From Gammaproteobacteria bacterium (GTDB lineage: Bacteria; Pseudomonadota; Gammaproteobacteria; Steroidobacterales; GCA-2729495): a DNA stretch of 64,000 bases. The notes under the pieces were generated by a model. It saw nothing but the letters and a program-made list of their open reading frames with translations. It searched no databases and was not told where the DNA came from. The DNA lies in assembly GCA_015709695.1 (NCBI GenBank), contig CP054183.1, forward strand, positions 2,654,992 to 2,718,991, in the 5' to 3' direction. The position numbers were made by a program, and so were the translations under genes. Of the stretch, positions 28,634-29,698 are shown in pieces; position 1 is the first letter of the stretch; every line of letters starts with the position of its first letter.

Positions 28634-29698
28634 TTATAACAAAGCTTTAGCGTTACCGTGTTCCACGTGGAACAACTTTCCAGGCCGCGACAGCGGCAGT
28701 TCCCGGGGGTTGATGCAGGCCAGGAAAACCTGAGCCGGTGCAGCCTCGAGTGCCCGTATCAGCGCAGCGAGCCGCTCTCCGTCAAGGTCGGCTGCAGGTT
28801 CATCCACGACCAAAGCCGATTTCGCATTGCCGCTGCCGGCTGCCAGATCCGCCTGGGCCAGGACCAGGGAGGCACCCAGGAGCTTCTGCTGCCCCTTGGA
28901 TGCCCGCCAGCGGGAACGCTCGGCATCGATCTCGAAGCGCAGGTCTGCCCTCTGGGGGCCGACTCGGGTGTACCCGGCCAGTCGGTCGGCTGCACGGCTG
29001 CCAGCCAGGGCCTCCGCCAGCGGCAGGCCATCAGTCCATCCCGGGCTGTAGTCCAGGGAAACCGCGGCGCCAAGCAGACGTTCCCCAATGTCCTGGAAAC
29101 GGGGCGTCAATTCAGCGAGGTAGGCCTGGCGCGAGGCATCGACGGCCTCACCCGACGTGGCGAGCTCCACTTCCCAGGCGGCCAGCACGGCATCCGCGGC
29201 CTGATCACGAAGCGCCGCATTCCGCTGCGCCAGCGCTCTCCGGAACGATCTCCAGGAACGGAGAAAGTCATGTTTCACGTGGAACACGCCCCAGTCGAGG
29301 AGGCGGCGCCGGGCTTCCGGCGGGCCCTGGCCAAGACTACTGATGTCGGCATCGATTGCCTGCACGGCGAAGTGAGAGGCAAGGTCTGCGGGCCCGCAGC
29401 CGGCCTGCCCGCCGACGTGGATATCGAGTCCGCCGGCGGCAATGCGAACGCCCAGGAAGGTGCCTGCCGGCTGCGAATCGAGGTGGCCGCCGATCTCGGC
29501 GGCCGATTGCCCGGAGCGGACCAGCACGCGGTTGTCGGCCGCACGGAACGAACGGCCACGGCCCAGGAAATAGATGGCTTCGAGGAAGGAAGTCTTGCCG
29601 GCACCGTTGGCACCGGCAAGAACATTCAGGTCCGGGTCGAAGCTCAGGTCCGCGTCGCCGATACAGCGAAAGTCCCGGACCCGGATGTCAGCCAGCAA
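28634..29698 (-). CDS. recF: DNA replication and repair protein RecF
   Basis: SMC-like ATPase that loads RecA at gaps with RecO and RecR. 354 residues with Walker [21 protein letters not shown], signature [12 protein letters not shown], and Walker [12 protein letters not shown]. The only usable start is TTG at 29698 with no clear ribosome binding site. Two parS-like palindromes are embedded in the coding sequence, read as FHVKH (29272-29287) and FHVEH (28659-28674), so the protein has adapted around them. Between dnaN and gyrB. Confidence 0.95.
28659..28674. promoter_or_regulatory. parS site 1 (ParB centromere site)
   Basis: TGTTCCACGTGGAACA is a perfect 16-bp palindrome matching the parS form known from many bacteria. 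It lies inside the 3' end of recF, about 2.3 kb from dnaA and 3.9 kb from rpmH. Confidence 0.85.
29272..29287. promoter_or_regulatory. parS site 2 (ParB centromere site)
   Basis: TGTTTCACGTGGAACA matches the parS consensus, with one position departing from perfect symmetry. It lies 613 bp from site 1, also inside recF. Confidence 0.82.

Follow-up and report, generated by a model that had tools for sequence, protein, structure and literature searches.

Paired parS-like palindromes within the recF reading frame and their conservation among Gammaproteobacteria

The 64,000-nucleotide stretch of gammaproteobacterial DNA analyzed here (the window) carries the gene order dnaA-dnaN-recF-gyrB. The coding sequence of recF includes two parS-like sites, A and B, each of which is an exact match to the 16-bp palindrome TGTTNCACGTGNAACA. 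The features of the region, in window coordinates, are as follows.

26185-28605, minus strand: gyrB (NCBIfam TIGR01059/NF011501).
28634-29698, minus strand: recF, the host gene of both sites, 354 amino acids with a TTG start as called (NCBIfam TIGR00611 equivalog, E 3e-85).
28659-28674: parS-like site B, TGTTCCACGTGGAACA, encoding L-FHVEH at RecF residues 342-347 (FHVEH, 343-347), near the C-terminus.
29271-29286: parS-like site A, TGTTTCACGTGGAACA, encoding V-FHVKH at RecF residues 138-143 (FHVKH, 139-143).
29727-30827, minus strand: dnaN (NCBIfam TIGR00663).
31078-32409, minus strand: dnaA (NCBIfam TIGR00362).
32485-32493, plus strand: match to the DnaA box TTWTNCACA (TTATCCACA).

A first-pass annotation of this DNA had placed the two palindromes in frame within recF, where they encode FHVEH and FHVKH, and both the coordinates and the open reading frame confirm this arrangement. 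The spacing given there, 613 bp, is corrected to 612 bp between site starts. Likewise, the description of recF as essential is too strong, given that recF mutants of Escherichia coli are viable. Sites A and B are 3.1 and 3.7 kb, respectively, from the start of dnaA, and thus near the origin as also proposed, with the origin itself placed by its presumed association with dnaA. The DnaA-box match is the sole one of its kind in the window and lies just upstream of dnaA, where it is a hint to the oriC side of the region of a kind that about half of shuffled sequences would also be expected to give.

The palindromes are rare sequences in this DNA. Allowing up to three mismatches to TGTTTCACGTGAAACA, only these two sites are recovered from the window (0.06 expected by chance), and two matches in one shuffled window were found in 0 of 100 shuffles at the same threshold. 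In the whole genome, a single contig of 3,105,498 bases, matches to TGTTYCACGTGRAACA with zero or one mismatch are restricted to the two recF sites. One further match to this pattern carries two mismatches (position 2751430), and the looser pattern GTTNCACGTGNAAC has one additional match at 952933, which is approximately 1.4 Mb away and far from the origin. A chance origin of the palindromes is ruled out by the shuffles together with the whole-genome counts.

The same genome carries parA and parB, which adjoin gidB and the ATP synthase (atp) genes at 2.73 Mb. The parB gene (genome positions 2732940-2733830) is outside the window, approximately 49 kb from recF, and its product includes the GERRWRA and ENIQRE motifs that form parts of the CTP-binding pocket of ParB proteins. 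Moreover, ParB of Pseudomonas aeruginosa was found by ChIP-seq to be bound at parS1-4, of which parS2 and parS3 have the sequence TGTTCCACGTGGAACA (PMC5098823). The identity of site B to these two sites, the presence of parAB in the same genome, and the conservation across the class described below uphold the original assignment of the palindromes as parS-like, and on this sequence evidence both are very probably ParB loading sites.

To establish how widely the sites occur, recF was read from 361 loci, which include relatives of this organism, a family-spread sample of the class, two orders of the class, 81 named loci (E. coli among them), and 40 loci from other classes. The search patterns used for the named scan exclude the two sites, and so the sites could not bias it. 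Enteric bacteria were taken in by the named scan and not by the order-level scans around genomes G183 and G194. We infer that the sampled class genomes belong to Gammaproteobacteria, since the named loci that align with them all do. The core TTYCACGTGRAAC occurs at site A in 210 of the 319 distinct class recF genes and at site B in 198; 175 of the genes have it at both positions. The core was found in none of 40 recF genes from other classes when the whole gene was searched, some of these RecF proteins being so divergent that they align poorly at the two site positions.

The sites are also concentrated in recF when entire genomes are considered. For 123 class genomes with both a recF reading and whole-genome counts, 206 of 261 matches to GTTNCACGTGNAAC lie within recF, as do 127 of 144 strict TGTTYCACGTGRAACA sites. 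At least one GTTNCACGTGNAAC site is located in recF in 113 of the 117 genomes that have any such site; 91 of the 117 have exactly two in recF, and 80 have all of their sites there. Looser matches are expected by chance at approximately 0.1-0.2 per genome, in agreement with a reversed-pattern control.

Several departures from the two-site arrangement were observed. Members of family f173 (L181, L184, L186, and L289) carry a third parS-like site, TGTTTCACGTGAAACT, near the start of the recF reading frame, besides those at the usual positions. Extra parS-like sites are located some tens of bases past the end of recF in other genomes (G127:C7:7800, G106:C11:16630, G194:C1:1109319, and G152:C152:9182), and in G194, which has such an extra site, site B itself is gone, as though it had shifted just outside the gene. 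Most genomes have two or three GTTNCACGTGNAAC sites, and twelve are present in the 2.6-Mb genome G138, in which no recF was detected and which possibly represents a multi-parS lineage.

One explanation for the palindromes is that RecF requires Phe-His-Val-Glu at both places, such that they are by-products of protein constraint with coincidental codons. Indeed, some of the residues persist in RecF proteins lacking the palindrome, including that of E. coli. At site A these are Phe and the first of the two His residues; at site B they are Phe, Val, and Glu. However, protein constraint cannot fix synonymous codons. Using 122 genes from the family-spread class sample, we ranked each recF column with one dominant residue by its codon uniformity. 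The six His, Val, and Glu codons of the two sites occupy ranks 1-6 of 104 such columns, with uniformities of 0.95-0.98, whereas the remaining columns have a maximum of 0.72 and a median of 0.36. Because the six most codon-uniform columns lie under the sites, conservation of these sequences goes beyond what the protein code requires. The third base of the Phe codon coincides with the degenerate position of parS, and this codon is free to vary (0.53-0.54).

This codon bias is present in every GC3 class. For genes whose GC3 exceeds 0.75, GAA is the codon in 46 of 47 cases at the sites versus 31% elsewhere. In the first sample read, the Lys that replaces Glu is encoded by AAA in 26 genes at site A and in 26 at site B, and its codon AAG was seen at neither. 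Thus, the proposal that a centromere site shares its bases with protein code is borne out by CAC, GTG, and GAA codons that are frozen under the palindromes. The two arms of each site also covary, TTT occurring with AAA and TTC with GAA (p 4e-9 for site A and 6e-5 for site B). We rejected this covariation as proof of palindrome pairing, since a cross-site control is similarly strong, also after correction for GC3. The association of T/C with A/G in the arms reflects a lineage-wide preference, its strength between sites being about that within site B.

A related expectation was that FHVEH and FHVKH would be confined to species with parS. This stands in part: at site A, Val disappears in groups lacking ParB, whereas Phe and the first His persist without the palindrome, as in E. 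coli RecF, which retains both residues within FHNEP. Site A overlies a conserved DWG-x-FH stretch and site B a C-terminal F-x-V-E. Vibrionaceae (L238-L266) and Shewanella (L274-L279) mostly encode FHVEH at site B with a CAT codon, giving TTYCATGTGGAAC, wherein a single synonymous change breaks the palindrome. GTG and GAA remain nearly fixed in these sequences and the half-site GTGGAAC is intact; half-sites of this sequence are bound by ParB in P. aeruginosa (PMC10419367). Conserved residues by themselves are thus neither proof nor refutation of parS, and it is the conservation of codons that is informative. Probably, the palindrome first formed over residues already tolerated or needed by RecF and then fixed the remaining choices.

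The fate of the sites in lineages lacking ParB bears on the same question. Named genomes were searched with the ParB of this organism, and full-length matches (E < 1e-60) were found in Vibrio, Photobacterium, Enterovibrio, Aliivibrio, Aeromonas, Psychromonas, Shewanella, Ferrimonas, and a legionellalean. No full-length ParB was found in 20 enteric, orbacean, and pasteurellacean genomes, which gave no matches or weak partial ones (best E 9e-11). Enterobacteriaceae and Pasteurellaceae are likewise stated to lack ParB in the literature (PMC3909081). Among 43 recF genes from the ParB-less Enterobacterales, Orbaceae, and Pasteurellaceae, the canonical core is present at site A in none and at site B in two, from Pantoea coffeiphila and an Erwinia; the loss in enteric lineages may represent one or a few events, such that these genes are not independent. 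At site A, these groups encode FHNEP, FHHHP, and similar sequences with mixed use of CAT and CAC and of GAA and GAG. A smaller-scale example is provided by genus g48, wherein G063 has ParB and two sites and G192, with a genome of 1.0 Mb, has neither ParB nor a site. Some ParB-bearing genomes have parS moved out of recF (e.g., G087, G170, G098, and G209), and their RecF residues at these positions have drifted. Two genomes, G151 and G152, gave no ParB match yet retain parS-like sites; both assemblies are fragmented and may be missing sequence.

Thus, the wider prediction that the palindromes follow ParB is supported at the level of codons, and they follow the class as well. The uniformity of CAC, GTG, and GAA at the sites (95-98%, compared with at most 72% elsewhere in the same genes), the loss of Val at site A where ParB is lost, and the fact that the recF sites account for most of the parS-like sequence in these genomes leave constraint by the protein alone a very improbable explanation. 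We reject it on the strength of the codon test and retain protein constraint as a partial cause of parS being hosted at these positions.

Another DNA-binding protein, or a methylation or restriction system, might instead recognize the central CACGTG, which is the most conserved part of the sites and a known type of target for methylation and restriction enzymes. Several observations argue against this possibility, which we consider extremely remote. Conservation extends to the outer TT...AAC and hence over the full parS sequence, such sites are nearly confined to recF rather than spread over the genome, their loss tracks the loss of ParB, and ParB is proven to bind the identical sequence in P. 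aeruginosa.

In four genomes, both recF sites are altered alike or as mirror images, with CACATG, CATGTG, or CACGTA replacing CACGTG (G060/L055, G199/L041, G186/L117, and G042/L123). The sequence TTCCACATGGAAC occurs twice in G060, each time placing Met instead of Val in RecF; TTCCATGTGGAAC occurs twice in G199 and TTCCACGTAGAAC twice in G186, and G042 has a mirror pair of CACATG and CATGTG. ParB is present in all four genomes. Such pairs could arise if the specificity of ParB drives RecF evolution, with a shift in recognition pulling codons, and sometimes residues, along. A comparison of the ParB recognition helix revealed no consistent residue that would explain the altered pairs, and we offer this idea tentatively, as one that we would sooner doubt than accept.

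We conclude with high confidence that both palindromes are the chromosomal parS sites, the bacterial centromere, of this organism. By analogy with P. aeruginosa, its chromosomal ParB would load as a clamp at both recF sites, which lie 3-4 kb from where dnaA starts, and would spread over dnaN-recF-gyrB, after which ParA would move the origin region. The location of the sites would be explained by inheritance from an ancestor, shared by most of the class, that already had both in recF. Selection for ParB loading would then fix the synonymous choices CAC-GTG-GAA/AAA in the RecF codons that the sites share.

Beyond segregation, the sites could be mainly regulatory, with ParB loaded in recF tuning expression of the dnaA-dnaN-recF-gyrB operon. 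Excess ParB in P. aeruginosa lowers the mRNA of gyrB and neighboring genes, which its authors attribute to parS1 and parS2 in recF (PMC5521831). At the native protein level, however, losing ParB or the sites altered only genes near the intergenic parS3 and parS4, not those near the intragenic parS1 and parS2 (PMC5521831). Furthermore, parS1-4 are needed for origin segregation in that species and any one of the four is sufficient (PMC4368675). A mainly regulatory role is therefore unlikely, and segregation through ParB loading is the function that we favor.

If the class-wide picture is true, the usual chromosomal centromere in Gammaproteobacteria consists of two sites within the recF frame, kept across most families sampled. 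It would be a clear case of codons in a protein gene that are held by a chromosome-segregation signal, accompanied by a natural experiment in which these codons relax where ParB has been lost. Accordingly, conservation of RecF residues or codons at the site positions should not be taken as evidence of protein function, and recF is the first place to look for chromosomal parS in this class.

The core idea is not new, because parS1 and parS2 have been published as lying within recF of P. aeruginosa, where they are called intragenic (PMC5521831) and where recF has been noted to hold the closest parS sites (PMC3909081). The two sites have also been mutated there by changes that preserve the protein (PMC4368675). 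The class-wide distribution and the codon freezing form a stronger result than the first-pass annotation claimed. We found no description of either in the literature searched, which excluded the main parS survey (Livny et al. 2007), and the priority of this class-wide picture is uncertain.

Intragenic chromosomal parS sites bound by ParB/Spo0J are known from Bacillus subtilis and other bacteria. Those sites differ from the pair described here in that they reside in other host genes and are not known to have a class-wide fixed position in recF. In Xanthomonas citri, at least one parS site has been reported, which the study assigned to the 3′ end of dnaN rather than to recF (PMC3937727). The closest parallel is P. 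aeruginosa, which by its published positions likewise carries, close to oriC, two parS sites in recF that share this core, site B being identical to its parS2. Unlike P. aeruginosa, which has the further oriC-proximal sites parS3 and parS4 outside recF, the organism examined here has the recF pair as the only good sites in its genome.
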